NCBI GenBank assembly: GCA_013150955.1
Contig: JAADJD010000002.1
Span: forward strand, 28,425-92,424
Reading direction: 5' to 3'
Origin: Calditrichota bacterium
GTDB lineage: Bacteria > Calditrichota > Calditrichia > RBG-13-44-9 > J042
DNA: 64,000 bases
Below, piece by piece: positions 3,583-38,518 of the stretch. Below the pieces are notes generated by a model. It searched no databases. It worked only from the letters and a program-made list of their open reading frames with translations, and was not told where the DNA came from. The position numbers and the translations under genes are program-made. Every line of letters starts with the position of its first letter. Within the stretch, counting starts at the first letter, position 1.

Positions 3583-3599
3583 AAATAAAGGTGATTAAA

Positions 3600-4274
3600 A
3601 TGATCGATCGCAGAACCTTTTTAAAAATAGGCTCGCTTTCCATTTCCTATGTTTTATTAAGTGGCGTTAAAGGATTGGTGCGAGCCGGTGTGCAGGATGT
3701 TTCTTACAAAAACCGCATGAACGACCTGACTTTAGAGAATTTTGTTGGTTACTTTCCCAATTTACGACCGCAGGCGTACTGGCACCGTTACATTGCGTTT
3801 ACCGATCCCGGTGAACAGTTGCTGTTTTCGATTGAATCGTCATCCACACAATTGCAAATCGATTATGCGGTTTCTGAAAATCCACAGGAAGCCGGAAGTT
3901 GGTTTGTGGATGTCTTTTTTCGTTCACTGGATGTGGAAAGCGAACAAACAGTAAAATTTATTTTTTCCATAAACCCGCCGATTGGGGATAATGCTGTTCC
4001 ACAATTCGAAGACCAGATTCAGCTCTATGCTAATTTTCCTAATCCTTTTAATCCCTCTACAAAGATTAGTTACTATCTTCCCAGAACCACACCGGTTAAG
4101 GGGATCGTGTACAATATGCTGGGCGAAACCGTTGCCGTACTGGTTGATGAAGTACAAAGAAGCGGACGGCACGAACTAATCTGGAATGCTGAAAACTTGC
4201 CGTCAGGAATTTACATCTTTTCATTAATAACCAATAACAGCAAAAAGACCATCAAAATGATGAGGGTAAAATAA
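3600..4274 (+). CDS. Tat-signal protein with T9SS-like C-terminal sorting domain (cassette copy 1, gene A)
   Basis: A 224-residue protein whose N-terminus, MIDRRTFLKIG followed by a hydrophobic stretch, matches a twin-arginine signal. The middle part (residues about 40-130) has a conserved block, TDPGEQLLFSIE, shared with the protein at 24451-25158. Residues about 140-224 form a sorting domain (NFPNPFNPSTKISYYLP, LPSGIYIF). ATG 3600 is chosen because AAAGGTG just upstream acts as ribosome-binding site; the in-frame GTG at 3591 is part of that site. It lies 17 nt after the LVIVD gene and 1 nt before gene B, so the three are probably one operon. Function of the middle domain is not recognised. 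It is predicted to be exported and surface-anchored. Confidence 0.85.
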   Translation: MIDRRTFLKIGSLSISYVLLSGVKGLVRAGVQDVSYKNRMNDLTLENFVGYFPNLRPQAYWHRYIAFTDPGEQLLFSIESSSTQLQIDYAVSENPQEAGSWFVDVFFRSLDVESEQTVKFIFSINPPIGDNAVPQFEDQIQLYANFPNPFNPSTKISYYLPRTTPVKGIVYNMLGETVAVLVDEVQRSGRHELIWNAENLPSGIYIFSLITNNSKKTIKMMRVK

Positions 4275-4275
4275 A

Positions 4276-5079
4276 ATGGCCAAACAAATGATTGACGAAG
4301 CTAATTTTTCCATTGAGCTGCCAGAAAATATTTCGACGTTAAAAATAAAACACCATGCGGTTCAATATTCTGTGGTTGGCAAACCGCTTACGATTTATCT
4401 TAATAATAGTGAAAGAAATGCGAATTTGTGGAAAATCCCGGACGAGATGCCGGATTGGTACAGTAGCAATCTGGAAAAATTGGAAATAAATCTTGAAAAT
4501 GGGAAAATTTACTCCAGAGCAATTATTGAAGAAGAATTGGATGGTGACTTAGCCGAAGGCCAGGAATATTATATTCGTTATTTTCTAAAAACTAGTGAAA
4601 GCTCTGGAATCATTGGCGAAGTAGTTGATGAAATTGATCGTTACTTGATTAAATTTAAAATTGACTATATTGATAATGAAAACTCCCAGTCCATTGAATT
4701 CTTTGTTCCAAACTCGGTTTACAAATATTTGCTTGGCTTTGATATTTCACAACCTGTAATGTGGGTCAGCAATTTAGTACTTGAGCCACCAACAACCACT
4801 CCATCTGACCCGGAGGATGATCCATTTACACGATTTTTCCATCGTCTTTATAACTTGATTATTACTGGTGAATCGTCACCTGTTACAGGAGATCCCTGGC
4901 AAATTCTTGCTTACTCAAAAATTATTAACCGAAATACACCAAGAAACTATAGTGAAGATTTAAATCCTTTTATTGAGAATGATTTGGCCTTAATTAAAAA
5001 TATTTCTGAACCCGATGTGTTAAATCATGATTCACTTTACCCAACAAGGGTGAGTGCAATATTTGAGAGTTTTGGATAG
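4276..5079 (+). CDS. Unrecognised partner protein with DDPFTRFF motif (cassette copy 1, gene B)
   Basis: A 267-residue protein without signal peptide or membrane segment. I do not recognise the family. It is clearly homologous along most of its length to the protein at 23619-24440. Shared blocks are EGQEYYIRY, VVDEIDRYLI, VPNSVYKYLLGFD, a PSDPEDDPFTRFFHRLY core near residues 175-193, KIINRNTP and a DxLYPT end. Start ATG 4276 follows gene A directly (stop TAA at 4272-4274). The same A-B order occurs in both copies, so the two products probably work together, perhaps as a chaperone or cargo partner of the exported protein; that is inference. The local sequence is AT-rich compared with the second copy. 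Confidence 0.8.
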   Translation: MAKQMIDEANFSIELPENISTLKIKHHAVQYSVVGKPLTIYLNNSERNANLWKIPDEMPDWYSSNLEKLEINLENGKIYSRAIIEEELDGDLAEGQEYYIRYFLKTSESSGIIGEVVDEIDRYLIKFKIDYIDNENSQSIEFFVPNSVYKYLLGFDISQPVMWVSNLVLEPPTTTPSDPEDDPFTRFFHRLYNLIITGESSPVTGDPWQILAYSKIINRNTPRNYSEDLNPFIENDLALIKNISEPDVLNHDSLYPTRVSAIFESFG

Positions 5080-5095
5080 AAATTGAATTTTATTT

Positions 5096-5267
5096 AAACC
5101 CAGATTATGCAATAGCCTACGAATTACACGAATTAAAACGAATAAGAATAATAAAATCCATTTGATAATATCTGGATGAAAATGTGTTTTATGGTTTATT
5201 CACGATTTTGTAGATATTTTTTGGTTTCATTCGTGTGATTCGCGGTTTAATGCATTATTTTGGTTAA
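5096..5267. repeat. Dispersed ~170-bp inverted-end repeat, copy R1 (forward)
   Basis: This is the reference copy of a family seen at least nine times in the window. One end reads AACCCAGATTATGCAATAG, followed by CGAATTACACGAAT. The other end, read as its complement, is AACCCAAATAATGCATTAA followed by CGCGAATCACACGAAT, so the ends are imperfect inverted repeats of about 37 bp. The centre carries ATCTGGATGAAAATG and a CGATTTTGTAGATATTTTT block. It has no coding potential and starts just after the stop codon of the preceding gene. It resembles a MITE or a large REP-type element. Confidence 0.85.
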
Positions 5268-5395
5268 ATTGCAATTATTAATTGGAGTAGATTTTTTTTC
5301 TGAAATTATTTACCATGTTAATCATAGGTTTATTAAGATTTGGTAGTGCGTTCGGGAGTTTTTTTAATTTTACCCTGATAAAATCAGGACAACTA

Positions 5396-6180
5396 TATTC
5401 CTTCCCATTCATAAAGGATGGGGAGCGACCAAAAATCGAAAATTAAAAATCCGCAATCAGAAATCCGCAATTCCACTCCTCATTAGGAACACGCCCACCC
5501 AACGCGTTGATCCAATTCGTAAATTGAATTTCCCTGGCTATCTTTGCCCTACAGGCAAAGCAGGGTATCGCTGTTGGGGTTTCGTGTCCCCACGCGTTGC
5601 GTGGGGCTAACCTCTTTTTGCCCTTCGGGCAAATCGTTTCCACCAATGGCCCCACCTTCCGGAACGTAAACTCAGACCTCAGACCTCCATCCCGGAAATT
5701 TGCCCCCAAATTCGCAATCCGACATCCGAAATCCCAACCCCCTTCCGCCCCACAGGGGCACAATACGGTAGCCCGGAGCAACGCTCCGGGGATCGGAGAG
5801 ATTCACCAAAAAACACATGCGCCCTGTAAGGGCATAATCACAAACAAATGTGGCAACAACCTGAAACCGTCCCCCAGATTCGAAATCCGAAATCCAAAAT
5901 CCAAAATCCAAAATCATTTCCGGTTGTCCTTCAGACAACGCGGTGGGAATGATGGTGGCGCCATATATACTCCACGCGTTGCGTGGGGCTAACCTCTGTT
6001 TGCCCTTCGGGCAAATCGTCTCCACAGATAGCCATGTGGTTTCAATCCGGCCGGATGGTGTCCAATTATGAATCCAGTTTACATCCCCAGTAAATTCCCC
6101 TCTAAATCCAAAATTCGAAATCCGCAATCCGAAATCCGAAATTCACAATCCGTAATTTCCAAACATTCATTTGATTTCTG
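5396..6180. repeat. Gene-free mosaic of short palindromes and AATCCGAAATCC tracts
   Basis: No convincing gene is present. Short hairpins with 2-5 base loops recur: CACGCGTTGCGTGG, TTTGCCCTTCGGGCAAA, GCCCTGTAAGGGC, CCCGGAGCAACGCTCCGGG. A block of about 54 bp (CACGCGTTGCGTGG ... GGGCAAATCG) occurs twice, at 5590-5643 and 5972-6025. Between them lie degenerate tracts of the type AAATCCGAAATCCAAAATCC (about 5431-5475, 5697-5737, 5876-5920 and 6107-6158). The open frames across this stretch are by-products of the repeats. Confidence 0.75.
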
Positions 6181-6216
6181 GAGAACATGCGATGAAGTTG
6201 GAACCAGAATGTAAGA

Positions 6217-6263
6217 AACCCGTGTTATCCCGACAGGAGTCGGGACGTCCTAAACCCCTTCGA
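6217..6263 (-). pseudogene. tRNA-Glu remnant, copy 2 (distal)
   Basis: Read on the minus strand, this stretch keeps the D-arm side (AAGGGGTTTAGGACG) and part of the T-arm (CACGGGTTT) of the tRNA-Glu at 6440-6512. The anticodon arm is replaced by the palindrome TCCCGACTCCTGTCGGGA, and both acceptor strands are gone. It is not expected to give a functional tRNA. Confidence 0.6.
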
Positions 6264-6282
6264 CTCTCTGGGTAAAAAGAAA

Positions 6283-6304
6283 GCCCGAAGGTTGTCCTTC
6301 GGGC
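6283..6304 (-). terminator. Rho-independent terminator behind the tRNA-Glu remnant
   Basis: The stem GCCCGAAGG/CCTTCGGGC has a 4-base loop. On the minus strand it is followed by TTTCTTTTT. It sits 8 bases beyond the remnant at 6313-6375, in the same arrangement as tRNA-Glu and its terminator. Confidence 0.7.
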
Positions 6305-6312
6305 ATATATCG

Positions 6313-6375
6313 TAGCGCGTACGGGATTCGAAGCCGTGTTATCCCGACAGGAGTCGGGACGTCCTAAACCCCTTC
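6313..6375 (-). pseudogene. tRNA-Glu remnant, copy 1
   Basis: The 3' acceptor strand and T-arm of the intact tRNA-Glu are kept (TAGCGCGTACGGGATTCGAA on the plus strand) apart from one base (GAAGCC instead of GAACCC). The D-arm side AAGGGGTTTAGGACG is also kept. The anticodon arm is exchanged for the palindrome TCCCGACTCCTGTCGGGA and the 5' acceptor strand is lost. The following terminator is retained, so this looks like a decayed tandem duplicate of tRNA plus terminator. Confidence 0.7.
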
Positions 6376-6407
6376 TAAAGCATCCCTCATTCCTGCCTGT
6401 AAAAAAT

Positions 6408-6433
6408 AGGCCCACCTTTATTTTGGTGGGCCT
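6408..6433 (-). terminator. Rho-independent terminator of tRNA-Glu
   Basis: The stem AGGCCCACC/GGTGGGCCT has an 8-base loop and is followed on the minus strand by ATTTTTT. It begins 7 bases after the tRNA-Glu 3' end. Confidence 0.85.
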
Positions 6434-6439
6434 TAATTG

Positions 6440-6512
6440 TAGCGCGTACGGGATTCGAACCCGTGTTACCGGCGTGAGAGGCCGGCGTCCTAAACCCCTA
6501 GACGAACGCGCC
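6440..6512 (-). tRNA. tRNA-Glu (anticodon CTC)
   Basis: On the minus strand the acceptor GGCGCGT pairs with ACGCGCT. The anticodon arm is CCGGC-CTCTCAC-GCCGG with anticodon CTC, which reads GAG. The T-arm contains GGTTCGAATCC. CCA is not encoded. It probably shares a transcript with tRNA-Arg upstream and ends at the terminator 6408-6433. Confidence 0.95.
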
Positions 6513-6520
6513 ATTTATCG

Positions 6521-6594
6521 TACGCCCGGAGGGAGTCGAACCCCCAACCCTCGGATCCGAAGTCCGATGCTCTATCCAGTTGAGCTACGGGCGC
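6521..6594 (-). tRNA. tRNA-Arg (anticodon TCG)
   Basis: On the minus strand the acceptor GCGCCCG pairs with CGGGCGT (one G-U pair). The D-arm is GCTCAACTGGATAGAGC. The anticodon arm TCGGA-CTTCGGA-TCCGA gives anticodon TCG for arginine CGA codons. The T-arm is GGGGGTTCGACTCCC. CCA is not encoded. Only 8 bases separate it from tRNA-Glu. Confidence 0.93.
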
Positions 6595-6688
6595 ATCTCC
6601 TAAAAATCGGCTTCAAATTTAATGGGCATCGTGCATTAAATCAACCCACAAATGCAAATCCCAAAGCCTTCAAGCCTATTCATAAAAT

Positions 6689-6712
6689 AGGCCTTCCTGA
6701 ATCGGAAGGCCT
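6689..6712 (-). terminator. Terminator of the ferredoxin gene
   Basis: The hairpin AGGCCTTCC/GGAAGGCCT has a 6-base loop. On the minus strand it is followed by ATTTTATG, 26 bases after the ferredoxin stop codon. Confidence 0.65.
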
Positions 6713-6738
6713 CTCTTCTTTCAAAGATAAAATCAAAA

Positions 6739-7029
6739 TTAAGGTTCCAGTCCAAATCGCTTGTAATTAATCGCTATATACTCTTTCCACTTATCGGGAA
6801 CTTCATCCTCAGGGAAAATGGCTTCCACCGGACACTCAGGTTCACAGGCACCGCAATCAATGCATTCTTCGGGATGGATATACAACATTTCATTCGCTGC
6901 GCGCATTTTTTCTTTGTCTTCATCGCTTAAGGTATACCCTTCAGCGGGATAAATACAATCCACCGGACAAACCTCCACACAAGCCGTATCGCAAACCCCG
7001 CGGCATGGTTCGGTGATGATGTAAGCCAT
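6739..7029 (-). CDS. Ferredoxin with two Fe-S clusters (FdxA type)
   Basis: A 96-residue cytoplasmic electron carrier. Nine cysteines are at C9, C13, C17, C21 and C25, then C56, C59, C62 and C66 ([12 protein letters not shown]). A loop of about 30 residues lies between the two cluster motifs. The pattern fits FdxA-like 7Fe/8Fe ferredoxins common in the FCB group. Exact cluster content (3Fe-4S plus 4Fe-4S or two 4Fe-4S) cannot be fixed from sequence alone. The start is supported by AAGGAGG 8 bases upstream. It is monocistronic with its own terminator. Aspartase, on the same strand upstream, is not obviously linked in function. Confidence 0.92.
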
Positions 7030-7125
7030 AATTCATTCCTCCTTGGATTTTGGTAATTAATGGTGAACTAACTTAAATAAAAAATAAAAAATTATCCACA
7101 GAAAATTTCCTTTTTAAGCCCCGGT

Positions 7126-8523
7126 TTAATCACCCGGTTCCCGGGTTAATCGTTCCAGATTAAATAGTTCCTCCATCTGGTTATCGGAGAGAATCCTTTT
7201 TTCGCGAACGATTTGTTGAATGGATTTGCCAGTGCGCAACGATTCTTTGACAATTTCCGCGGCGTTCAGGTAACCCACAATGGGATTCAGAATGGTTCCC
7301 AGCGCAGTTGTGCGTTCCGCATAGGCCCGGCATTGCTCCTCATTGGCCTGAATGCCCTGGATGCCCTTTTCCGTAAACACAGGCAGAAAATTGATTAGCA
7401 AACGAAAACTTTGCAAAATGTTGTGGGCCATGAGGGGCATCATCACGTTCAGTTCCAGCTGGCCTGCCTGAATGGCATACGCTATTGCCGTATCGTTGCC
7501 AATGATTTGAAAGCCAATCATATTTAAACATTCGGCAAGTACGGGATTAACTTTCCCCGGCATGATGGAGGAGCCGGGTTGAACGGCCGGCAGCTGAATT
7601 TCGTTCAGTCCGGTTGCCGGGCCAGAAGCCATCAAGCGCAAATCATTGGCCAGTCGGATCAACTCCAGTGCCAGCGCACGCAACGCTGCCGAAACCCATC
7701 CCACCGCCTGCCGACTGGCCATGGCTTCCCGTAAATCCTGTGCTGGGCGAACAGGGAAGCCGCTTATGGCTTGCAGATGCTGTATGACCCGGCTTCGGTA
7801 ACCGGGCAATGTATTCACTCCGGTTCCTACTGCTGTGCCCCCAATGGCCAATTCCAGTAGCTCTTCACAGCTTCGGCCGATTGCCCTAACCGATCGCTCG
7901 AATGCAACGGCATAAGCCCGAAATTCCTGTCCCAGGCGGATGGGGAGCGCATCCTGCAGATGCGTGCGTCCGGCTTTGATGATGCGATCCAATTGATTGG
8001 CTTTGGCGTTCAATGCGTCAATGAGTTGCTGCAAAACCGGCTCCAGCTCCCGCCAGAGGATTAACGTGGCCAGATGCAGGGCCGTGGGGAAAGTATCGTT
8101 GGTGGATTGCCCATAATTCACATGATCGTTTGGACTCAAATAGGCATAGTCTCCCCGGGGACGTCCCAGAATTTCCAGGGCCCGATTGGCGATCACCTCG
8201 TTGACGTTCATGTGAAAACTGGTTCCTGCACCGGCCTGGAACACATCCACCACAAACTGATCCAGAAACCGGCCTTCCAGAATTTCCGTTGCCGCCTGGC
8301 AAATGGCGCTGGCCCGCTCAGCATCGATGGCGCCCAGTTCCTGATTGGCCAGACAGGCGGCTTTTTTAATCATGGCGTACGCCCGGATGAATGCTGGATC
8401 GGCTCGCAGACCACTAACTGGAAAATTTTCCAGCGCCCGCTGGGTTTGAATGCCGTAATAGGCTTCCGCGGGAATGGGCTTCTCGCCCAGACTATCCCGT
8501 TCGATGCGTGTTTTTTTGGCCAT
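7126..8523 (-). CDS. aspA: Aspartate ammonia-lyase
   Basis: A 465-residue member of the fumarase/aspartase superfamily that deaminates L-aspartate to fumarate and ammonia in the cytoplasm. Signature regions are YYGIQTQRALENFP near residue 23, QAGAGTSFHMNVNEVIANRA near 100, the TH motif in GRTHLQDA, and the flexible SS loop GSSIMPGKVNP near 320, which contains the catalytic serine. The QAGAGTS block and the N-terminal pattern favour aspartase over class II fumarase. ATG 8523 is chosen rather than the longer frame because it matches the family start and has GGGAG upstream. The gene is transcribed away from the sigma operon. Confidence 0.9.
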   Translation of the reverse strand: MAKKTRIERDSLGEKPIPAEAYYGIQTQRALENFPVSGLRADPAFIRAYAMIKKAACLANQELGAIDAERASAICQAATEILEGRFLDQFVVDVFQAGAGTSFHMNVNEVIANRALEILGRPRGDYAYLSPNDHVNYGQSTNDTFPTALHLATLILWRELEPVLQQLIDALNAKANQLDRIIKAGRTHLQDALPIRLGQEFRAYAVAFERSVRAIGRSCEELLELAIGGTAVGTGVNTLPGYRSRVIQHLQAISGFPVRPAQDLREAMASRQAVGWVSAALRALALELIRLANDLRLMASGPATGLNEIQLPAVQPGSSIMPGKVNPVLAECLNMIGFQIIGNDTAIAYAIQAGQLELNVMMPLMAHNILQSFRLLINFLPVFTEKGIQGIQANEEQCRAYAERTTALGTILNPIVGYLNAAEIVKESLRTGKSIQQIVREKRILSDNQMEELFNLERLTREPGD

Positions 8524-8684
8524 GGGCTGCTCCCAATTATGATTCGATGAAATATGATATCGCCCCGCCGATAAATACAAGCGTTTGTTCTGGATTGGTG
8601 AAGGATTCCTGAACAAAAGGTCTGCTCATCTGGAAGGAATCCCGATAGGTGAACACTTCCCATTTTTTAAGTAAACACCTGATA

Positions 8685-8852
8685 AACCCAAATAAAGCGT
8701 TAAACCACGAATCACGCGAATGAATTCGAAAAAAATCAACAAGGTAGCGAATATATCCGGGAAAACATTTTCATCCAGATAGAATCCAGCGCATTTTATT
8801 ATTTTTATTGGTGTTAATTCGTGTAATTCGTAGGCTAATTCGTAATCTGGGA
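8685..8852. repeat. Dispersed ~170-bp repeat, copy R2 (reverse)
   Basis: Reverse orientation of the R1 family: it starts AACCCAAATAAAGCGTTAAACC and ends CGTAATCTGGG, with CATTTTCATCCAGATAG in the centre. It lies in the divergent gap between aspA and the sigma gene. The rest of 8524-8970 shows no gene. Confidence 0.85.
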
Positions 8853-8971
8853 TAAATAAAAAGTACCCTGGAAATGACTGAAAACCAGGATCAGGAAAAA
8901 TTGTGCCGGCCGATTGGCTCGAATGGATCCGTGTTCGATGGTTCCTGTGTTTAATCCAATTTTAAAATTTG

Positions 8972-9001
8972 TGCAAGTTTTTTTGAAGCGCTCTGTCTAA
9001 T
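8972..9001 (+). promoter_or_regulatory. Predicted ECF-type promoter P1 (sigma gene)
   Basis: TGCAAG at 8972-8977 and GTCTAAT at 8995-9001 are separated by 17 bases. The same two boxes with the same 17-base gap recur at 9604-9633 before the anti-sigma gene. A GTC-type -10 box is typical of ECF sigma targets, so autoregulation by the downstream sigma factor is inferred. The expected start of transcription is near 9008, giving a leader of about 23 bases. Confidence 0.7.
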
Positions 9002-9030
9002 ATGTATTGAATGATTTGCTCAGGAGGCGA

Positions 9031-9597
9031 ATGACCCGGAAAGTCCAGACACCGACGGCGGTGGATTTTGAAACGCTATACCGCGATTACGGCCGTTCTG
9101 TTTTGAATCTGGTTTACCGGATGACCGGTGACGAGGAAGTGGCGCGGGATTTAACTCAGGACATTTTCTACAAAATTTATACCCGATTGGACGAATTTGA
9201 AGGACGGTCCCGGATTTACACCTGGATTTATCGCATTGCGGTGAATCATGTACTGAATTATTTGAAACGCGAACGCCGCCGCAAATGGGTGGAGCTGTTA
9301 GAGAAGCGCACCAGCGAAATATTTCAGGAGGCTTCAGAACGGGTGGAATGGAAAGTACCGCCGGAATCGCCCGATGCCCGAATGGAAAGGCACCAGCGGG
9401 AAGCCATTATCTGGCAAATGATTCAGCAATTGCCCGATAAACTAAAACTCCCGTTTGTGTTGCATCGGTATGAGCAGATGTCCTACAAAGAAATTGCGGA
9501 AATTCTGGAGCTGAGCGTTTCGGCTGTGGAGGCCCGCATTTACCGGGCCGGGAAACAGCTGGTTAAAAAACTGGAACCCTGGCTGGGGAAAATATGA
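9031..9597 (+). CDS. ECF-family RNA polymerase sigma factor
   Basis: A 188-residue group 4 sigma factor. Region 2 covers about residues 12-85 (VLNLVYRMTGDEEVARDLTQ, TWIYRIAVNHVLNYLKRE). Region 4 covers about 125-180 (LPFVLHRYEQMSYKEIAEIL, VSAVEARIYRA) and has the helix-turn-helix. ATG 9031 is preferred because AGGAGG lies just before it. The TTG at 9007 would fall at the predicted transcription start and the ATG at 9002 runs into a stop. It heads an operon with a membrane anti-sigma factor and two LTxxQ periplasmic proteins, which suggests control of an envelope or metal stress response. Confidence 0.93.
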   Translation: MTRKVQTPTAVDFETLYRDYGRSVLNLVYRMTGDEEVARDLTQDIFYKIYTRLDEFEGRSRIYTWIYRIAVNHVLNYLKRERRRKWVELLEKRTSEIFQEASERVEWKVPPESPDARMERHQREAIIWQMIQQLPDKLKLPFVLHRYEQMSYKEIAEILELSVSAVEARIYRAGKQLVKKLEPWLGKI

Positions 9598-9603
9598 ATC
9601 GGT

Positions 9604-9633
9604 TGCAAGTTTTGAAGATGAAAGGTGTCTAAT
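9604..9633 (+). promoter_or_regulatory. Predicted ECF-type promoter P2 (anti-sigma gene)
   Basis: TGCAAG at 9604-9609 and GTCTAAT at 9627-9633, separated by 17 bases, repeat the boxes and spacing of P1. It lies between the sigma stop codon and the anti-sigma start. The predicted transcription start is near 9640, which argues for ATG 9662 rather than ATG 9638 as the anti-sigma start. Confidence 0.65.
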
Positions 9634-9661
9634 CTTAATGAAACAAAAAGCGAGGCAGATT

Positions 9662-10123
9662 ATGCCTGGACATGTTCGAAAGCATGTAGTGGATTACACG
9701 ATGGGACGGTTACCCTCGCATAAAAAACGGCGCGTAATCGAACATCTCCGGGATTGTCCCGAATGTCGGCAATATTTTGAAGCGGTTGCCCGATTATTTT
9801 CCCCGCCAGAGGACACGGAACGCTACCCGCTGGAACCGGATCCCTTCCTGCTTACCCGCATCCGGGAACGGAAAATTGCTGCGGAAAAAACGCCGCTTAC
9901 GGAACCGTCATCCGCAGCCGGGTTGCGCTGGATTAACTGGGGGATATTGGTCGGCTTGGCTCTGCTGGTGGGCGTCTCCATTACCCGGTTTACCGATCGT
10001 ACCGACTGGGAATCCTATTTCATCGTGACTCAGATGCAGGAAGCCCTGAATTATGGAGATGACATGCTCACTCAGCAGGTGGTTGAACCGTTTGTTGACT
10101 CAAAAATCGAGATGCAGCCATGA
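9662..10123 (+). CDS. Zinc-finger anti-sigma factor, membrane-bound
   Basis: A 153-residue protein with an N-terminal cytoplasmic anti-sigma zinc motif, H28-x3-C32-x2-C35 (HLRDCPEC). One membrane segment follows near residues 90-108 (GILVGLALLVGVSIT), then a periplasmic tail of about 45 residues. Such proteins hold the cognate ECF sigma factor inactive at the membrane until a signal arrives. ATG 9662 has CGAGG six bases upstream and lies about 22 bases after the predicted P2 start; ATG 9638 would add 8 residues. The next gene overlaps by 4 bases (ATGA), so translation is coupled. Confidence 0.82.
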   Translation: MPGHVRKHVVDYTMGRLPSHKKRRVIEHLRDCPECRQYFEAVARLFSPPEDTERYPLEPDPFLLTRIRERKIAAEKTPLTEPSSAAGLRWINWGILVGLALLVGVSITRFTDRTDWESYFIVTQMQEALNYGDDMLTQQVVEPFVDSKIEMQP

Positions 10124-10683
10124 AATTAAAAGTCATCGTTGGAATTCTGGTGTTTTTAATCGCCGTGAATCTGGCCACACTGGGGTCATACATCTATTAC
10201 CGCTGGCAGGAACAGAAACAGATGAACCGATTTCAGGAGCTTGTGGGCCGGGATGGGATGTTGCACCGGCCTGGTAGGCGTGGCCCCATACCGCGGATTC
10301 GACTGAAGCCTGATCAAAAGCAGCAATTGCGTCATTTAATGCAAAATCTCCAGCGACAACTGGCACCGGATTATCAGGAGATGCAGCAATATCAGGAAAA
10401 GGTGTTTCAGGCGCTGGTTGCCGATCGTCCCCAATTGGATTCCATTCAACACTATTTGAAGGCCATTCAGGATATTCAATTTCGTATCAAATGGGCAACC
10501 GTTCGCCAATTGCAACAGGCCCGGTCATTCCTGAGTGAAGAACAATTCCGGCAGCTGGTGCGGGCAGCGGTGATGCTGCCAGAAGGAGGCCGGCGCCACT
10601 GGCATCGTCCGGGACGCCTGCACGGTGGAGCAGGAATGAACAATCCAATAATGAACAATCCAATTAAAATAAAGGAGGATTAA
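10120..10683 (+). CDS. Membrane-anchored periplasmic LTxxQ-like protein (ZraP/CnrX-type sensor candidate)
   Basis: A 187-residue protein with one N-terminal hydrophobic segment (residues about 4-25), then a helical periplasmic part. Two LTxxQ-like motifs are visible: LKPDQKQQL near residue 65 and LSEEQFRQL near 140. The region between is rich in Gln and charged residues, as in CpxP/ZraP/metal-resistance periplasmic proteins. The last 25 residues are His/Gly/Asn-rich (HWHRPGRLHGGAGMNNPIMN), which might bind metal. It overlaps the anti-sigma gene by 4 bases and is probably a signal sensor or modulator for it; that role is inferred. Confidence 0.75.
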   Translation: MKLKVIVGILVFLIAVNLATLGSYIYYRWQEQKQMNRFQELVGRDGMLHRPGRRGPIPRIRLKPDQKQQLRHLMQNLQRQLAPDYQEMQQYQEKVFQALVADRPQLDSIQHYLKAIQDIQFRIKWATVRQLQQARSFLSEEQFRQLVRAAVMLPEGGRRHWHRPGRLHGGAGMNNPIMNNPIKIKED

Positions 10684-10685
10684 CC

Positions 10686-11156
10686 ATGCGTCGTGTTGTG
10701 TTCTTTAGTGTGTGGGTGTTACTATGGGTAGGAACCCTGAGCATTTTTGCCCAACCATCGAAACCCGGTCTGGGTAAAGACATGATGTGGCTATACCGCT
10801 TGAATCTGACCGAGGAGCAGCAGGCCCGCATCATGGATCTTCGGTTGAAGCTACAAAAGGACATTGTGCCGTTGCAGGCCGATTTGAAGAAGCTGCGATC
10901 GGAATTGCACCTGGCTTTGACGCAGGATCCGTTTAATGAAGGGAAGGTGAAGAAACTGGTGGCCGCCATTGCCGAGAAACAACAGGCCATTCATTTAAAA
11001 CGGGTGTTGCACAAGCGGCAGATTCGGGATGTGTTAACTCCAGAACAGCGGAAGCAATTTGATCTGCGCATTCTTGCCGGCCCGAATGGCATGGGGAGAC
11101 ATGGCAAGGGAAAACACCATCCCGAACCGCCCCATCGAGGAAAACCGTGTCGGTAA
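10686..11156 (+). CDS. Spy/CpxP-family periplasmic LTxxQ protein
   Basis: A 156-residue protein with an N-terminal signal peptide likely cleaved after FAQ (residue 23). The mature part has LTEEQQARI near residue 39 and LTPEQRKQF near 118, the repeated motif of the Spy/CpxP chaperone family, and a His/Pro/Lys-rich tail (HGKGKHHPEPPHRG). AAAGGAGG precedes the ATG. Family members act as periplasmic chaperones or stress sensors. As the last gene of the sigma operon it is a probable output or feedback element. A strong terminator follows. Confidence 0.83.
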   Translation: MRRVVFFSVWVLLWVGTLSIFAQPSKPGLGKDMMWLYRLNLTEEQQARIMDLRLKLQKDIVPLQADLKKLRSELHLALTQDPFNEGKVKKLVAAIAEKQQAIHLKRVLHKRQIRDVLTPEQRKQFDLRILAGPNGMGRHGKGKHHPEPPHRGKPCR

Positions 11157-11193
11157 TGCACCGATGCCCATGTTCACCACCCGAAAATTCAAG

Positions 11194-11226
11194 CGCCTGC
11201 CTGTTTCCGGGGCAGGCGTTTTTTTT
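11194..11226 (+). terminator. Rho-independent terminator of the sigma operon
   Basis: The stem CGCCTGCC/GGCAGGCG has a 9-base loop and is followed by eight T residues at 11219-11226. Confidence 0.92.
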
Positions 11227-11242
11227 ATGCCAGATGATGCCT

Positions 11243-11410
11243 GAAACCACGAGTTACTCGAATAATTTCTAAAAATGTCAACAAAATAGCGATTAAATCC
11301 CGGAACACATTTTTATCCGGATATAATCAAACGGATTTTATTATTTTTGTTCGCGTTAATTCGTGTCAGTTAATTCGTGTCATTCGTAGGCGAATGCATA
11401 ATCTGGGTTT
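11243..11410. repeat. Dispersed ~170-bp repeat, copy R3 (reverse)
   Basis: It runs from AAACCACGAGTTACTCG to GCATAATCTGGGTTT. The AATTCGTGTCA end is duplicated locally (AATTCGTGTCAGTTAATTCG). It lies directly after the sigma-operon terminator. Confidence 0.8.
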
Positions 11411-11437
11411 AACGTTATCATTTCTTTCCTGGCGCCG

Positions 11438-14310: not shown

Positions 14311-14332
14311 TTAGAGAATAGGGGAGGAAGCG

Positions 14333-15208: not shown

Positions 15209-15232
15209 CCTGCATTGAACCGCAAAATTGTC

Positions 15233-15620
15233 CCTGATAAAGCGTTAAACCACAAATCACGCGAATGAATTCGAAAAAAATCAACTAAATAGCGAATATA
15301 TCTGGGCAAATATTTTCATCCAGATAGAATCCAGTGCAATTTATTTTTTTTGGTACCCGTTGTGCTAATTCAGGACAAAGCAGGTGTTTAGAAAAACCGT
15401 TAATACGGTTAAGAATCAATTGGTTACGTTATCCATTTTCTCCTGGCTAAAACCAGGAGTTAATAGAATTTCTCATTCATTAACACCAGATTTATCTGGG
15501 TGGGCAACTCCTGTAGTAACAATAAGTTATAGAACCGTTTTAACGGTTTGGATTGTCTAATTAGCACAACGGGTTATTGGTGTTCATTCGTGTAATTCGT
15601 AGGCGAATGCATAATCTGGG
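15233..15620. repeat. Dispersed repeat, copy R4 (reverse), split by a 220-bp insertion
   Basis: Left part 15233-15354 (CGTTAAACCACAAATCACGCG ... ATCCAGTGCAATTTATTTTTTT). Right part 15575-15620 (TATTGGTGTTCATTCGTGTAATTC ... AATCTGGG). The parts join to one family copy if 15355-15574 is removed. Confidence 0.8.
15355..15574. mobile_element. 220-bp MITE-like element with 16-bp perfect terminal inverted repeats
   Basis: The left end ACCCGTTGTGCTAATT (15355-15370) and right end AATTAGCACAACGGGT (15559-15574) are exact inverted repeats. Inside are four further small palindromes: AACCGTTAATACGGTT, CTCCTGGCTAAAACCAGGAG, CCAGATTTATCTGG and AACCGTTTTAACGGTT. It has no coding capacity. It interrupts repeat copy R4. 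TTGGT occurs at both flanks (15350-15354 and 15577-15581) and could be a target duplication, but the match is not exact at the element border. No transposase is in the window. Confidence 0.7.
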
Positions 15621-15644
15621 ATTATTTTTTTCCTTCCTGAACGG

Positions 15645-15673
15645 TTGACGGTTTCTTTCTCCGTCTGTAAATT
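15645..15673 (+). promoter_or_regulatory. Predicted housekeeping promoter of the lamin-tail protein gene
   Basis: TTGACG at 15645-15650 and TAAATT at 15668-15673 are separated by 17 bases. The same -10 box with a 17-base gap is seen before the HU gene (59186-59214). The predicted leader is about 100 bases. Confidence 0.55.
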
Positions 15674-15782
15674 CCTTGCACACGCCTTTTCTACCGGTCT
15701 GACACATTTCACAGGATGTGTGCTCACGTTTGCCAGTGATTGGGCAGGAGAACAACTGACCCAAATGCGATGAGGTGCAGCC

Positions 15783-17489: not shown

Positions 17490-17558
17490 TTTATGTTCAT
17501 TGAATTTTTGCCCCCCACCTTTTATTTTTTTCTCGAACCATTACTGGCAGGAGGAGGC

Positions 17559-18404: not shown

Positions 18405-18567
18405 AAGGGAAAGGGGGTGGACATCCCCTGTGCCGGTCGTGTTTAAAGATGAACGCCATGGGTGTTCTGGTGCGGGAGGCGCCGGTGATTCAGGAAAGGG
18501 GAGCACCGGCGGGATATGACCGTGGGTCTTTGAATAGTTGGGTTTGCCAGAAAAAGGGGTGCGAAAA

Positions 18568-20202
18568 TTGAACAGGAATGGGCAATCCGTGGAAGCACCG
18601 GGAGCGGGGAAAAAAGATTTACTGTTGCATTATCTGGCATTAGCCAGAGAGTTTCGCAACCAGCATCTTTATCAGAAGGCAGAGGCGGCCCTGAAACTGG
18701 CGCTGGAGAAATCCCCTCATCATCCCACCGTTTTGACCGCACTGGCCAATCTGTACATTAAAATGGGTTTTCTGGATCAGGCGTTAAAAATACTTAATCA
18801 ATTAATCCGGGAACATCCACGGCTGAAAAGTGCCCGTTTTTTACGGGGCAAGCTTTACCAGCGGCGCCATCAAATAGCCCGTGCAATTGAAGATTTTCAG
18901 GAAGCCCTGACCGGGAGCCACCGGGATGTGCCCATTTTAAATCGATTGATTCCCCTGTTGCTGGAAAGGAAGCAGCTGGATGCGGTACAACAGCTGATTC
19001 AGCGCTACCGATCCATCCTGCGGCAACCGGCGCTGATTCTGGAATGGGAAGCCCGTCTGTTGCAAGAAAAAGGACAATTGCAGGAAGCCGTGGAGAAAAT
19101 GCGTCAGGCGGTGATGCTGGCCCCGCACAATCGTTTTCTTCTGAAAAAGTATCTGAAAACGCTCATCCAGGCCAGCGATCGCGATCCGCTGCCGGCGTAT
19201 CAATCCCTGAAGGCATTCGTTCCGCAGCTGGCGGATCTGGAACCGGATGAACTCACCGAACTGGAAATCGAATTCCTGCTGAAGCGGGGCGATCGGGAAA
19301 TCGCATTGCAAAAATTGGATGCCTATTTAAAGCAGCATCCGCATGATTTTTATCATCGCAAACGGCGAGCGTTTTTATTGCTGGAGATGGGAAGGGAAAG
19401 GGAGGGGATTGAGGAACTCGTCCAGCTGTTTCGTGAACATCCGGAGGATGTGTATGTTCGGAATAAGCTGGAGCATTATTTTGTGGCAACCCATCAGATT
19501 GGCCGCTGGAAGTCCATCTTGAAGGAGGCGTTGATGACCACTGCCGGCCGCGGCGAGCTCTTTGGATACCTGCGGCGAAGCCGGCAGTTTACCGATTGGC
19601 TGGCTTATTCCCGTCTGGATATTTCCGACTATCTAAAACAGGTTAAGAAGCTGCCCATTGCCTTTCCCGTACTGGCCGATCCGACATACGCCAGGTTGCC
19701 CCTGTATGCCCTGGAGACGCTGGTGCATCAACTGGCATTGCACGACCGCATTCCCACACCTCAGGCACTGTGGGAGCTTCTGCGAAGGGAAAAAGAAAAG
19801 AAAGGCCATGTGCCGCCTTTTCAGCTGGAAGATCTGGAACTGGCCTATCCGGTCTGGTTATTTGCCATTCAATTTTATTATTTGTTTAAAGATGCAGGAG
19901 AACTGGTGCCCCGGTTCGTACCGTCCCTGTTTCAGCGCCAGCAGGTTGCGGTGATTCTGGAAAAAGACGATGTCCGGGTGCACCTGGATGTGGGCCATTT
20001 GATTCATCCCGACCGGCGGAAGCGCAAGCGGTTGATCAAAAAGGGGAGGATCTGGGTATATCGCTGGCCGGGGGATTTTCCAGTAATGACGCGGATTCGC
20101 CACATCCCATTTTACAGTGTGGAACAGGCGCGGCAGGCGGTACGGGAAATTCTGGATGCCATCGGGACGACTGCGGTTCGGATGGATGCGTCGCCGTCGT
20201 GA
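18568..20202 (+). CDS. TPR-repeat protein of unknown function
   Basis: A protein of about 544 residues with tetratricopeptide repeats in the first 300 residues (YQKAEAALKLALEKSPHHPTVLTALANLYIKMG, then LDQALKILNQLIREHP and further weaker repeats). The C-terminal third has no family I recognise; it ends in a basic stretch (DRRKRKRLIKKGRIW) and an RIRHIPFYSVEQARQAV block. No signal peptide is seen. TTG 18568 is favoured by AAGGGG upstream; TTG 18538 in the same frame is possible. It is probably a scaffold for protein contacts, and the partner is unknown. The palindromic repeat island begins directly after it. Confidence 0.7.
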   Translation: MNRNGQSVEAPGAGKKDLLLHYLALAREFRNQHLYQKAEAALKLALEKSPHHPTVLTALANLYIKMGFLDQALKILNQLIREHPRLKSARFLRGKLYQRRHQIARAIEDFQEALTGSHRDVPILNRLIPLLLERKQLDAVQQLIQRYRSILRQPALILEWEARLLQEKGQLQEAVEKMRQAVMLAPHNRFLLKKYLKTLIQASDRDPLPAYQSLKAFVPQLADLEPDELTELEIEFLLKRGDREIALQKLDAYLKQHPHDFYHRKRRAFLLLEMGREREGIEELVQLFREHPEDVYVRNKLEHYFVATHQIGRWKSILKEALMTTAGRGELFGYLRRSRQFTDWLAYSRLDISDYLKQVKKLPIAFPVLADPTYARLPLYALETLVHQLALHDRIPTPQALWELLRREKEKKGHVPPFQLEDLELAYPVWLFAIQFYYLFKDAGELVPRFVPSLFQRQQVAVILEKDDVRVHLDVGHLIHPDRRKRKRLIKKGRIWVYRWPGDFPVMTRIRHIPFYSVEQARQAVREILDAIGTTAVRMDASPS

Positions 20203-20254
20203 CCTCTCCTGCAGGACAACCAGGTCTGTGTCGTTCCGTTGCTGGGTAGGCTGC

Positions 20255-20575
20255 GCATGCCCGCCCCCGCTCGGAGAGCGGGGGCATTGTAGCACGACTC
20301 TCCAGAGTCGTTATCCCCGCTTTGCGGGGATTTTGAGCTCGCAATAAATTGAGAGGAGTCGAGTGGAATGTTATCCCACCCCTTCAGGGCGCACCCGTTC
20401 AGGAGAGCGGGGGTACAGGTTGTAACACGTCTCTCCAGAGTCGTTATCCCGCCATGGCGGGATTTTTACTGCTCGCTTCGCTCGCAGCCGATCGGAGAGC
20501 GGTGGTACAGCTGTACGAGTTAAGAGTGTAAGAGTTGAAGAGTTAAGAGTAAAGAGTTGTAGCACTAGGCGGAGA
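20255..20575. repeat. Palindromic-repeat island, left block
   Basis: The gap 20203-20628 has no gene. It carries the hairpin modules of the island: CCCCCGCTCGGAGAGCGGGGG, CGACTCTCCAGAGTCG, ATCCCCGCTTTGCGGGGAT, TCCCGCCATGGCGGGA and CTCGCTTCGCTCGCAG. After 20515 come short AGAGTTAAGAGT direct repeats. Confidence 0.8.
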
Positions 20576-20628
20576 GACTGATGACAAATAACTTTGTTAA
20601 AAATTACTCCGTAAACTGTGAGAGAGAA

Positions 20629-21915
20629 TTAAATTAAATAAATTGGTAAAAATAGAATTTTAGTACCATTGCATTGCATAGCATCCCAAAAATCCCTGGT
20701 AACAACAATTGCCCTGGTAGGCCTATACTCACGAATAAAACTGCGTAAACCAGCCGGAATTCTAACTACTTTTTGCTCACGAAATTTTACTTCAATGGGA
20801 ATAAGTTCATTCTCTTTAAAGACTAAAAAATCAACTTCTTGTTTATTTTTATTACGCCAGAACTTGATTTCCAGATCATTTCTTTTTTGTAATTGATTAA
20901 ACACAAAATTTTCAGCCAACTGCCCCCAAAAGAAATGATCCGGTTCGTAAGCAAATTTACCGCTAATGGCATTACAAAGACCAACATCCTCAAAATACAC
21001 TTTAGGCATTTTACTCAATTCCTTACGAATATTAGAATAATGTGGGAGCAAAAAACTCACTACAAAGGTACTCTCCAGAATAAAAGCATATCGTTCCACC
21101 GTTGGGCGAGAAAGCCCAATGGTATTGGAAATTTCTGAGATGTTCATCAAACTCCCGATTTGGGAAGCCAGAATTTTGGTGACTTTATTAAATTTGTCAA
21201 TGCTTTCGATGGAAAACAGGAAACGGATGTCCTTTTGAATGTAAGACGTGTAAATCTCGAATAAGGACTGTATACGCTCCTGCTGTTTGGTTAATAGAGT
21301 GGTTTCCGGGTACCCACCAAAACTTAAAAAGTCATAAATTTCATTTAATAACTCGCTGCGGATAGATGGAAGAATAAACGGTTGGTCCGGGAATTCGGAG
21401 AATACATCCACGTCCGACAAAACATTGTACAATTGCTGTTTTTGTTTAAAAAGCAGAAACTCCCGAAAGTTTAATGGATATAATCGATAAACCCGTTTGC
21501 GCCCAACCATGGAATCACTGAAAATATTTTTCAAACGCAACGAAGACGAACCAGAAACTATAAATTTTAAATTTTGATAATGGTCGAACATATATTTTAA
21601 CAAAGAAGCGGCGTTTTCCAGATACTGAATTTCGTCTAAAAATACGTAGCCCCGTTTTTCAGGATGCGGTAAATTTTGAATTAACTGACGAGCAACTAAG
21701 TCGTAATTGTTGAATTGAAAATTTTCGCGATGGATTGGATTCTCTAAATCAAAATATAGAGCATTAGTTTTAACTTCAGGTTCCTGCAAAAGCATTTTTA
21801 AAAGGGTTGTTTTGCCTGTACGGCGTGAGCCAATAAGGATGAGTACGTAAGGCGTGGTCAGTTCTTTCCTCAATGAATTTAAAATATCACGATTAAGGAA
21901 ATTTGTAATAGTCAT
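20629..21915 (-). CDS. AAA-family ATPase with C-terminal DUF4143 domain
   Basis: A 428-residue protein. Walker A is G29SRRTGKTT37 and Walker B is YVFLDEIQYL near residue 90; SGSSSLRLK near 122 may be sensor 1. The C-terminal part (about 200-400) is DUF4143-like, with a nuclease-fold-like EVDFLVFKENELIPIEVKF block. Such ATPases are widespread, often in accessory DNA, and their role is not settled; toxin-antitoxin or defence links have been suggested for some. The gene is clearly more AT-rich than its neighbours and is flanked by palindromic repeats on both sides, which suggests acquisition. Its start lies in an unusual hairpin (21916-21942). Confidence 0.87.
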   Translation of the reverse strand: MTITNFLNRDILNSLRKELTTPYVLILIGSRRTGKTTLLKMLLQEPEVKTNALYFDLENPIHRENFQFNNYDLVARQLIQNLPHPEKRGYVFLDEIQYLENAASLLKYMFDHYQNLKFIVSGSSSLRLKNIFSDSMVGRKRVYRLYPLNFREFLLFKQKQQLYNVLSDVDVFSEFPDQPFILPSIRSELLNEIYDFLSFGGYPETTLLTKQQERIQSLFEIYTSYIQKDIRFLFSIESIDKFNKVTKILASQIGSLMNISEISNTIGLSRPTVERYAFILESTFVVSFLLPHYSNIRKELSKMPKVYFEDVGLCNAISGKFAYEPDHFFWGQLAENFVFNQLQKRNDLEIKFWRNKNKQEVDFLVFKENELIPIEVKFREQKVVRIPAGLRSFIREYRPTRAIVVTRDFWDAMQCNGTKILFLPIYLI

Positions 21916-21942
21916 TTAGCAAAATCTCCGATATTTTGCTAA
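21916..21942 (-). promoter_or_regulatory. Inverted repeat enclosing the ribosome-binding site of the ATPase gene
   Basis: On the minus strand TTAGCAAAAT-ATCGGAG-ATTTTGCTAA directly abuts the ATG at 21915. The arms are 10 bp and perfect, and the 7-base loop contains GGAG. It could be a protein operator or an RNA hairpin presenting the ribosome-binding site. A second inverted repeat, GCTTAAT-TTCTG-ATTAAGC, lies at 21952-21970. Confidence 0.6.
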
Positions 21943-22035
21943 TAATTTATTGCTTAATTTCTGATTAAGCAAACGGAAATGAATCTGACTTAATGCTTAA
22001 TTCTTATACTCTTAATTTGGAAAGGATGGACAACC

Positions 22036-23600
22036 ACTCGGAGAGCAGGGGCATTGTAGCACGACTCTCCAGAGTCGTTAGTCCCGCGAAGCGGGGCTTC
22101 TTTTACAGCTCGCTGGCGCGAGCACCGACTCTGGAGAGTCGGGGTACTGGTTCCCAGGTTGAACGTGGGAACCAGGTACATAATGGGAGTTGTAGTGAAT
22201 GTTATCCCACCCCTTCAGGGTGGAAATGATGGATTGGTATTCTCTATCCCGGTGCGCTGCACCGGGCTACCCTCTTGTTGCGCCCCTTCAGGGCGCACTC
22301 ACTCAGAGAGCGGGGTACTGTAGCACGACTCTCCAGAGTCGTTAGTCCCGCGTTAGCGGGACTTCTATTTACAGCTCGCTGGCGCTCGCACCGACTCTGG
22401 AGAGTCGGGTTACTGGTTCTCAGGTTGAACGTGGGAACCAGGTCAATAGGAAGATTGAACTTTAGGATATCCCACCCCTTCAGGGTGGAAATGATGGATT
22501 GGTATTCTCTATCCCGGTGCGCTGCACCGGGCTACCCTCTTGCGCCCTTTCAGGGCGAATCCGCTCAGAGAGCGGGGGTATTGTAACACGACTCTCCAGA
22601 GTCGTTAGTCCCGCGTTAGCGGGGCTTATTTACTGCTCGCTGACGCTCGCACCCGCTCTGGAGAGCGGGGGTACAGTAGTACGACCCTCCAGATTCGTTC
22701 AGGCTGCTGCAGCCACCCGAGCAGCATTACCTGGTTCCCAAGTTAAACTTGGGAACCAGGAAGCAACAGATGCCTTAACATGTATAAGTTACCCCTGTCA
22801 CGGTTCGACCTGTCTGTCAGCCAGGCAAGCGAAGCTCACCGTGACAGGGAACATACCCGCGGGAAGAGCGGGGGTACCAGTTGTAGCACGACTCTCCAGA
22901 GTCGTGTAGGCTGCGACAGCAGCCTTCTTAAATTAAATTGCGCCCGGGCAAACATACTGCTCAGAGAACGGGGGTACAAAAAGCCCCCTCTCTTTGGGCG
23001 CAAAGAGAGGGGGCTTGGGGGTGCGTTTATTCTGCCTCTAAAACCGCTGAAGCGGTTAGTAATGTATCCGGTGCGCATCCGATCCACCGGCTTGAAAAGC
23101 CTGTGTTAATGAATACATTGCTCGCTACCGCTCGCACCCGCTCTGGAGAGCGGGGGTACCAGTTGTACCACGACTCTCCAGAGTCGTTTAGGCTGCTGCA
23201 GCAACCCGAGCAGCATTACCTGGTTCCCAAGTTAAACTTGGGAACCAGGAAAAATAGCTATATCGAACATTAAGATATCCCACCCCTTCAGGGTGAAATT
23301 AGTGTTTGGGTATTCTCTACTACCGGTGCATTGCACCGGGCTATCTTATGGCGCCCCTTTAGGGCGCCAACCGCTCGGAGAGCGGGGTTACAATTGTACC
23401 ACAACTCTCCAGAGTCGTTAGTCCCGCGTTAGGGGGACTTCTATTTACAGCTCGCTGGCGCTCGGAGAGCGGGGGTACCAGTTGTAGCACGACTCTCCAG
23501 AGTCGTTTAGGCTGCGGCAGCAGCCTAATTACCCCAAACTACACCCAGGCAAGCATACTGCTCGCTATCGCTCGCAACCGCTCGGAGAGCGGTGGTACGG
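22036..23600. repeat. Palindromic-repeat island, central block of ~263-bp hairpin units
   Basis: No gene is supported here. A unit of about 263 bp repeats from 22036, 22302 and 22563 (the last degenerate), with further rearranged pieces to 23600. In order, each full unit holds CGACTCTCCAGAGTCG, GTCCCGCGTTAGCGGGAC, a CTCGCTGGCGCTCGC block, CCGACTCTGGAGAGTCGG, an inverted repeat CTGGTTCCCA...TGGGAACCAG, CACCCCTTCAGGGTG, CCCGGTGCGCTGCACCGGG, GCGCCCCTTCAGGGCGC and a CCGCTCGGAGAGCGG module. At 22980-23030 is another hairpin, CCCCCTCTCTTTGGG with its complement. Confidence 0.85.
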
Positions 23601-23618
23601 TTTGTGGTGTTATAGGTA

Positions 23619-24440
23619 TTACAAAAAGTTTCTCATTGCAACCCTCACTGCTGTCGGGTAGAGCTCGTCCTGCTCCAGAACATCAGGCGTGGCAATGCCC
23701 TTGATAAGCACGAGCTGGTCAAGAAAAGGATTGGTGCCCTTGTAGCCCCAGGGCGTGTTTCTGTTGATGATTTTCGTGGTTGACTTGACAAGCCATGGGT
23801 CGCCCTCTATGGGATTTGTTTCGAACGTCTCAAGCATGTCGTAAAGCCGGACAAAAAAGCGCGTGAAAGGATCATCCTCATAATCAGACGGCTTCTCTGT
23901 TGGCGGCTCAAGCTTGAGATTATTGACCCAAACAACATTTGATGACGGGTCAAAACCCATAAGGTAATTATAAACAGAACCAGGAACGTAAAAGCTCGTT
24001 GTTTTGTCCTCGCCGTTATCCTTGTAGTCAATGTTGAGAGTTATCAAGTACCTGTCAATCTCATCAACCACTTTGGCAACAGTAAAATCATTATCGCCGT
24101 GCTTCAATTTGTAGCGAATCCAGTACTCCTGGCCCTCTGCATTCTGGCCGTTCGGGAGAGTGAGAGGAATTTTGACATCAGTGCCAATGCCATTCCCATC
24201 GAGAACCATTTGCAGACCGTCAAGATTCTCACTGTACCACCTTCCTTTATTGGGGCCTGCTTTGTAAGGAGCAGGCAGCCATAATGTAGGATCGCTACCC
24301 TCGCTTGTCAAGTAAATTGTTAAAAAACGCCCTACCTGTGAGGAATCGGTCCTGTGGTTTTTCCACTGCGGGCTCGTGCTGACATTATCAGAATCAACAC
24401 CGATCACGGCCGAATCGGCAACTTTACCTAACGGTTTCAT
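23619..24440 (-). CDS. Unrecognised partner protein with DDPFTRFF motif (cassette copy 2, gene B)
   Basis: A 273-residue protein homologous to the one at 4276-5079, with the same blocks in the same order: EGQEYWIRYKLKHG, VVDEIDRYLI, VPGSVYNYLMGFD, PSDYEDDPFTRFFVRLYD near residues 180-197, KIINRNTPWGY and DELYPTAVR. No signal peptide or membrane segment is seen, and the family is unknown to me. It starts 10 bases after gene A ends. Its base composition is richer in GC than copy 1, so the copies are old or came from different sources. The strongest conservation is the acidic-aromatic core, suggesting a binding site. Confidence 0.8.
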   Translation of the reverse strand: MKPLGKVADSAVIGVDSDNVSTSPQWKNHRTDSSQVGRFLTIYLTSEGSDPTLWLPAPYKAGPNKGRWYSENLDGLQMVLDGNGIGTDVKIPLTLPNGQNAEGQEYWIRYKLKHGDNDFTVAKVVDEIDRYLITLNIDYKDNGEDKTTSFYVPGSVYNYLMGFDPSSNVVWVNNLKLEPPTEKPSDYEDDPFTRFFVRLYDMLETFETNPIEGDPWLVKSTTKIINRNTPWGYKGTNPFLDQLVLIKGIATPDVLEQDELYPTAVRVAMRNFL

Positions 24441-24450
24441 TGCATCCTCT

Positions 24451-25158
24451 CTATTTTCGGTACACCATTTTGCGCGTCTGGCGGCCCTGGGGCGTATCCA
24501 GCGCTAAAAAGTACACGCCCGTGGCTAATTCGGGCGCCGGGTGCCAGAGCAGTGTGTGTTCCCCGGCCGGCTGGCGGCCCTGTTGCAAAACGTCCACCAC
24601 CTGGCCGCGCGTGTTGTAAACCGCCAGGCGCACCGGCATGGCCCGGGGCAGCCGGTAGCGCAGGCGCGTGGCGCCGTTAAAGGGATTGGGCGCATTGGGC
24701 AGCAGTTTAAAATGCGCGGGCAGCTCGGGCGTGGGCCTTTCTATGGCCAGCGGCTCGTCGGCAAACACAAATTCCACCGTGTCCGATGACACTGCGCCCA
24801 GGGTCTGGATGCGCACCTCCACCTGCCAGGTGCCCGGGTTCTGGGCGTCTTCTTCCTGGCTAAAATCGATCAGCAAATTGCTGGCGTTGTGGTTCACGGC
24901 AAAGTAGAGGGGCTGGCCGGGATCGGTGTAAGCTATGTACTGGTGCAGGTAGGCTTCGGGCTTTACGTTGGGAATGTGGCCCATGTAAGTATCCAGCGTA
25001 ACATCGGGCATTTCGTTTTCAAAGGAAACGCTGGCCGGTGCAGCGAGTCCGGCGGTTTGCAGGTGCACTTTGCTCTTGGTACGCAGCAGGATGTTGAGCA
25101 GGGGCTGGCTCAATACAATGGTAGCGGCGGCATTTTTTAAAAATTGTCGTCGGTTCAT
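24451..25158 (-). CDS. Tat-signal protein with T9SS-like C-terminal sorting domain (cassette copy 2, gene A)
   Basis: A 235-residue protein. The N-terminus MNRRQFLKNAAATIVLSQP is a good twin-arginine signal. The middle domain (about residues 45-140) matches copy 1: a PDVTLDTYMGHIPNVKPEAY block and YIAYTDPGQPLYFAV. The end (about 150-235) is a sorting domain (NAPNPFNGATRLRYRLP, GVYFLALD). ATG 25158 is chosen because AAAGG lies nine bases upstream and it puts the RR motif at the start; the frame extends further to 25251. The upstream gap to 25400 has no gene. Unlike copy 1, no LVIVD gene precedes it. Confidence 0.85.
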   Translation of the reverse strand: MNRRQFLKNAAATIVLSQPLLNILLRTKSKVHLQTAGLAAPASVSFENEMPDVTLDTYMGHIPNVKPEAYLHQYIAYTDPGQPLYFAVNHNASNLLIDFSQEEDAQNPGTWQVEVRIQTLGAVSSDTVEFVFADEPLAIERPTPELPAHFKLLPNAPNPFNGATRLRYRLPRAMPVRLAVYNTRGQVVDVLQQGRQPAGEHTLLWHPAPELATGVYFLALDTPQGRQTRKMVYRK

Positions 25159-25331
25159 GGAGTTACCTTTATTTTGGTAATGTTCCGGGCCATTGTCCAT
25201 TTTACTGCCTGTTGTTTTATTCAAAATAATTTTTCTGTTTGATTTTGTCAAATATTATGCCAGAATTTTTTCGGAAATGAGGCCAATGTTTTCAGGCTTT
25301 CTGGATAGTTCAGGCAGAGTGATGGTTGCAC

Positions 25332-25371: not shown

Positions 25372-25384
25372 CATTTATTTTTTT

Positions 25385-38424: not shown

Positions 38425-38518
38425 ACACCAGTCGATTCCGCGGAATCTCACAAACCGATTGCAAATATTCCCGGTAGCCATTAATTTCAATTCTTCTAAT
38501 ATGTTAGAAATTGGAGCG

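Follow-up and report, generated by a model that had tools for sequence, protein, structure and literature searches.

Why would a Calditrichota bacterium encode, side by side and twice within one stretch of DNA, a small protein (A) carrying both a Tat-type signal and a T9SS sorting domain, and a second protein (B) which has no signal peptide? Could A take B out of the cell? The stretch which we analysed, referred to below as the window, is 64,000 nucleotides long, and its features are collected in Table 1. The initial annotation had described two copies of one A–B pair on opposite strands, unlike each other in base composition, and this description holds. All four open reading frames are present and the copies share approximately 37-39.5% amino acid identity in A (E=1e-54) and 47-48.5% in B (E=5e-77), values which put both homologies beyond doubt. 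The GC content is 41.5% in A1 and 59.7% in A2, and 35.2% in B1 and 47.3% in B2. The stop codon of A is separated from the start of B by 1 bp in pair 1 and by 10 bp in pair 2. Between the copies, codon positions 1, 2 and 3 differ at 0.51, 0.35 and 0.68 in A and at 0.43, 0.32 and 0.70 in B; the changes are concentrated at third positions and therefore both genes are under protein-level constraint. Within pair 2, the GC content at third positions is 0.74 in A2 and 0.54 in B2, which hints at separate histories for these two genes.

Table 1. Features of the two A–B pairs and their surroundings (window positions; G001 is a genome of the same genus)
Feature	Position	Strand	Remarks
Pair 1 variable region	1-6436, starting ~2 kb before the window		~8.4 kb; ~155 bp instead in G001
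LVIVD-repeat surface protein gene	286-3582	+	carries a T9SS tail itself; ends 17 bp before A1
Pair 1 (A1-B1)	3600-5079	+	open reading frames confirmed
Gene A1	3600-4274	+	224 aa; Tat-type signal, ~90 aa middle domain, T9SS type A sorting domain
A1 T9SS sorting domain	4035-4262	+	residues 146-221; TIGR04183, 35.1 bits, cut-off 23
Gene B1	4276-5079	+	267 aa; no signal peptide or family match
B1 core	4801-4851	+	PSDPEDDPFTRFFHRLY; B alignment
tRNA-Glu/tRNA-Arg	6439-6594		end of pair 1 region
Pair 2 variable region	20203-26187		6 kb; ~80 bp between flanking genes in G001
Pair 2 (A2-B2)	25158-23619	-	open reading frames confirmed
Gene B2	23619-24440	-	273 aa; no signal peptide or family match
B2 core	23841-23891	-	PSDYEDDPFTRFFVRLY; B alignment
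Gene A2	24451-25158	-	235 aa; architecture as in A1
A2 T9SS sorting domain	24463-24690	-	residues 157-232; TIGR04183, 32.4 bits, cut-off 23
~170 bp repeat sites	5094-5267, 8685-8861, 11234-11412, 15237-15351, 29524-29697
~170 bp repeat sites, continued	38264-38425, 45923-46098, 46276-46448, 48352-48499

Both A proteins had been credited with a twin-arginine signal and a surface-sorting domain. The sorting domain is borne out, as both copies exceed the curated TIGR04183 cut-off. The twin-arginine motif is obvious by eye (DRRTFLK and NRRQFLK), but the Tat profiles remain sub-threshold: A2 reaches 13.8 with TIGR01409, against a cut-off of 16.7, and A1 is unlisted. Our Tat-type call is based on motif and hydrophobicity, with no trained predictor; the A proteins have the RRxFLK motif and a weaker hydrophobic stretch than other T9SS cargo, and so fall outside the Sec-type class. 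Taken together, the sequence features support A as a protein with a Tat motif and a T9SS C-terminal domain. A is small and cysteine-free, with no evident cofactor. Its middle domain, modelled at low confidence (mean pLDDT 59) as strands only, matched neither a PDB sequence nor a known family.

How unusual is a Tat-type signal on such a protein? According to published descriptions, T9SS cargo is exported by Sec (PMC5445135, PMC9251779, PMC7073777). The home genome encodes approximately 100 proteins with a T9SS tail and has both TatC and SprA (TIGR04189, 787.7 bits summed, cut-off 200). We read 67 of the T9SS-tail open reading frames, about 50 of them with a readable signal. A script flagged four as Tat-type, and two of these (L063 and L069) were moved to Sec by eye because the start codon had been placed too far upstream, which left A1 and A2 as the only Tat-type cases; the others look Sec-type. 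In the genome G017, a Tat-type signal was found in none of the eight short T9SS cargo proteins whose signal could be read, and in G039 the sole Tat-type protein among four readable ones is a homologue of A, so that the traits it shares with the window A proteins count as one evolutionary case. The two A genes also stand out in their coupling to a downstream gene. We could read the downstream sequence of 66 T9SS-tail genes and, judging partly by eye, found a long, soluble, signal-less open reading frame at 20 bp or less only after A1 and A2; the other close downstream neighbours are short, spurious-looking or hydrophobic at the start.

The B proteins do lack a signal peptide, as had been proposed, their N-termini not being hydrophobic. 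They contain no cysteine and are acidic (pI 4.5-4.7). B is the more conserved protein, the window copies sharing 48.5% identity in B and 39.5% in A, and the C-terminal half of B is its best-conserved region; 42 columns are invariant across three sequences, among them the INRNTP and LYPT motifs to which attention had already been drawn. The DDPFTRFF core, listed as a further shared feature, is common to B1 and B2 but is altered in the G030 copy, which has QQEFVDFF instead. Nor did we find a known family for B, in agreement with the initial annotation: B1 and B2 had no match in Pfam, NCBIfam, PADLOC or among PDB sequences, the PHROGs matches were at chance level, and fold searches with the A and B models gave no usable match. 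The B2 model contains strands and helices, with a mean pLDDT of 49 and an unreliable first half. As far as can be judged from their sequences, the A and B families look new.

Do A and B occur together elsewhere? Five copies of B are known, all from Calditrichota: exactly two in the home genome, both in the window, and one each in G036, G030 and G039, the last with weak B similarity. Across 40 genomes of the phylum, G030 and G036 were the only further genomes with B, and G039 the only further one with A. When 385 genomes were searched, B was present in three and none was added beyond the phylum set; for A the further matches were weak only. The best of them (G097, E 2e-4) lies in a lipoprotein of Fn3-like type that has no B beside it, and was judged to be chance. 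Two pattern scans of genome contigs, which are insensitive to divergent copies, returned the G030 contig alone, from a Calditrichaceae MAG. B had no match in plasmids, phages or viral contigs and A had none in viral contigs, and carriage of the pair by a phage or plasmid was rejected on this basis.

In G039, the A homologue retains a TRRxF motif and overlaps the next open reading frame by 4 bp (ATGA). The latter is cut by the contig end after 53 residues and resembles the B N-terminus weakly (E=0.002 in one comparison), so that the assignment of this pair rests largely on position. G036 has a decayed copy in which B still follows what is left of A, its 3' part, while the G030 contig ends within B, so its upstream neighbour is not readable. 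A thus lies directly upstream of B in all four judgeable cases (the two window pairs, G039 and G036), although the sample is small. The preserved order and tight coupling favour the earlier view of A–B as a unit; B homologues were not found mostly without A, and B matched no known unrelated family. The term "duplicated" is apt for two related copies, but not for a recent event. In the alignable parts, copy 2 shares 59-69% amino acid and 69-74% nucleotide identity with the G036 remnant and is closer to it than to copy 1. Since G036 belongs to another family, the window pairs are old relatives, either paralogues or separately acquired copies, and a recent duplication was rejected. The three copies from other genomes are all located at the end of a contig, which may reflect repeats, and no Rfam elements were found around them. 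Downstream of B on the G030 contig (L006, 6292-6516, minus strand) there is an open reading frame for a cysteine-rich peptide of 74 aa that looks secreted.

From a ferredoxin-type gene at 6739 to past 29 kb, G001 and the window are collinear, with approximately 60-98% protein identity for most genes, but both pairs are missing from G001. The pair 1 region also carries LVIVD-repeat genes and the pair 2 region a DUF4143 ATPase and repeat arrays. The absence could be explained by gain here or by loss in G001; the scattered occurrence of the pair, together with its decayed copy in G036, speaks for an accessory unit which is both gained and lost. The LVIVD-repeat gene just upstream of A1 is a possible operon partner for pair 1 only, as there is no such gene beside pair 2.

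We hypothesize, tentatively and with somewhat less than an even chance of being right, that A is a carrier with Tat and T9SS signals and B its cargo, the two being exported as a folded complex. The proteins, made from adjacent coupled genes, would form this complex in the cytoplasm; the N-terminal Tat signal of A would take it across the inner membrane and the C-terminal T9SS domain across the outer membrane, where B would be displayed on the cell surface or set free from it. After the Tat step, the complex might pass the T9SS or B might remain periplasmic. From the gene arrangement and signals we infer the complex, the use of Tat and the joint T9SS passage, as well as the surface location of A–B and any activity of B. 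Folded proteins are known to pass the T9SS (PMC9251779, PMC5445135) and Tat translocates folded proteins, including some complexes with the signal on one subunit (PMC6719666, PMC4273604). In the open-access literature searched, we found neither a Tat-fed T9SS cargo nor a non-covalent passenger exported by T9SS. Nothing evident in A alone would call for Tat, and co-folding with B, with A carrying B, is the most economical reading. The rarity of the Tat-type signal, the unique coupling, the order in four of four cases, the presence of TatC and SprA and the conservation of B were counted as support; against it we counted the sub-threshold Tat profiles, the few copies and the contig-end position of all the outside ones. 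The bolder claim, that an unrelated signal-less protein reaches the surface by a two-membrane relay, through Tat and then the T9SS pore on the adaptor A, is rather doubtful.

The closest parallels in gene layout are the Tat hitchhikers, such as the gamma/alpha subunits of the FAD glucose dehydrogenase of Burkholderia cepacia and PaoABC of E. coli, in which a small Tat-signal protein is co-encoded with a signal-less partner exported in a folded complex (PMC6719666, PMC4273604). There is no sequence kinship, however; B has no cofactor signature, its export is a prediction, and A adds a T9SS tail, so that the predicted route continues to the surface. A resembles type A cargo of the T9SS in its C-terminal sorting domain above the cut-off but, unlike such cargo, described as Sec-exported (PMC5445135), it bears a Tat-type signal, and its gene is coupled to one for a partner without any signal.

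Must B leave the cell at all? As the initial annotation suggested in proposing a cytoplasmic folding or export partner, it could serve A specifically, as a chaperone or in proofreading, by holding A or its Tat signal in the cytoplasm and staying behind, as might suit a signal-less protein coupled to a Tat-type gene. Dedicated Tat chaperones exist in other systems, and those of the TorD/NarJ type are likewise signal-less and encoded beside a Tat-type gene. The fold of that family is all-helical, whereas the weak B model is not; moreover, B has no match to a chaperone family in Pfam or NCBIfam and is more conserved than its supposed client, for which neither a cofactor nor cysteines are evident. 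We regard this role as a genuine rival, though an unlikely one: because A is small, cysteine-free and without an evident cofactor, and has diverged more than B, B as cargo and A as carrier fits somewhat better. Could B instead be an immunity protein acting in the cytoplasm against A, a small secreted effector? An exported protein followed by a gene for a signal-less acidic one recalls the T9SS-linked polymorphic toxins (TANFOR/BaCT) with a downstream immunity gene, proposed in Bacteroidetes (PMC7073777). A is far smaller than these, its middle domain spanning only about 90 aa, and no recognisable toxin, immunity or defence family was found in either protein (Pfam, NCBIfam, PADLOC). B is also the larger and less variable of the two proteins, while immunity families are reported to be diverse (PMC7073777), and a small effector would not need Tat, all of which makes this explanation very improbable.

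Perhaps A and B are physically unlinked neighbours, accessory genes co-inherited on variable regions, with B having a separate cytoplasmic role. Both pairs do belong to stretches that G001 lacks, and a shared place in such a region would hold neighbouring genes together; the difference in third-position GC within pair 2 points the same way. On the other hand, the order and tight coupling have survived an old divergence (39-48% identity) and are also seen in G036 and G039, so we think that mere co-inheritance is improbable.

If the relay carried by A is true, the T9SS is able to export non-covalent passengers and to be fed by Tat; signal peptides alone would therefore be insufficient to predict the surface proteins of T9SS bacteria, and A would be a compact natural adaptor for folded-protein display. 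If it is false, there remain two tightly linked families without a family match, so far in a few Calditrichota and in variable regions.

Several minor observations concern the surroundings of the pairs. Upstream of the window start (L016, 9252-10019), a second LVIVD-repeat gene runs into X residues, perhaps at an assembly gap. The AAA_14/DUF4143 ATPase (20629-21915) matches the PADLOC candidate defence family PDC-S01. On either side of pair 2 there are hairpin-rich repeat arrays (20262-20518, 22034-23600 and 25386-25995), and positions 25879-25923 score just over the cut-off for the Rfam Acido-Lenti-1 RNA. At 9007-11156, genes for a Sigma-70-type factor, a zinc-finger (anti-sigma-like) protein and a heavy-metal-resistance-like protein are consecutive, and they are weakly matched at the G001 site. 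Lastly, a repeat of approximately 170 bp, 74-87% identical among copies, occurs at no fewer than nine sites in the window, several of them directly after a stop codon; it may be MITE-like, because its ends resemble inverted repeats (CCCAGATTATGCA ... TGCATTATTTGGG).
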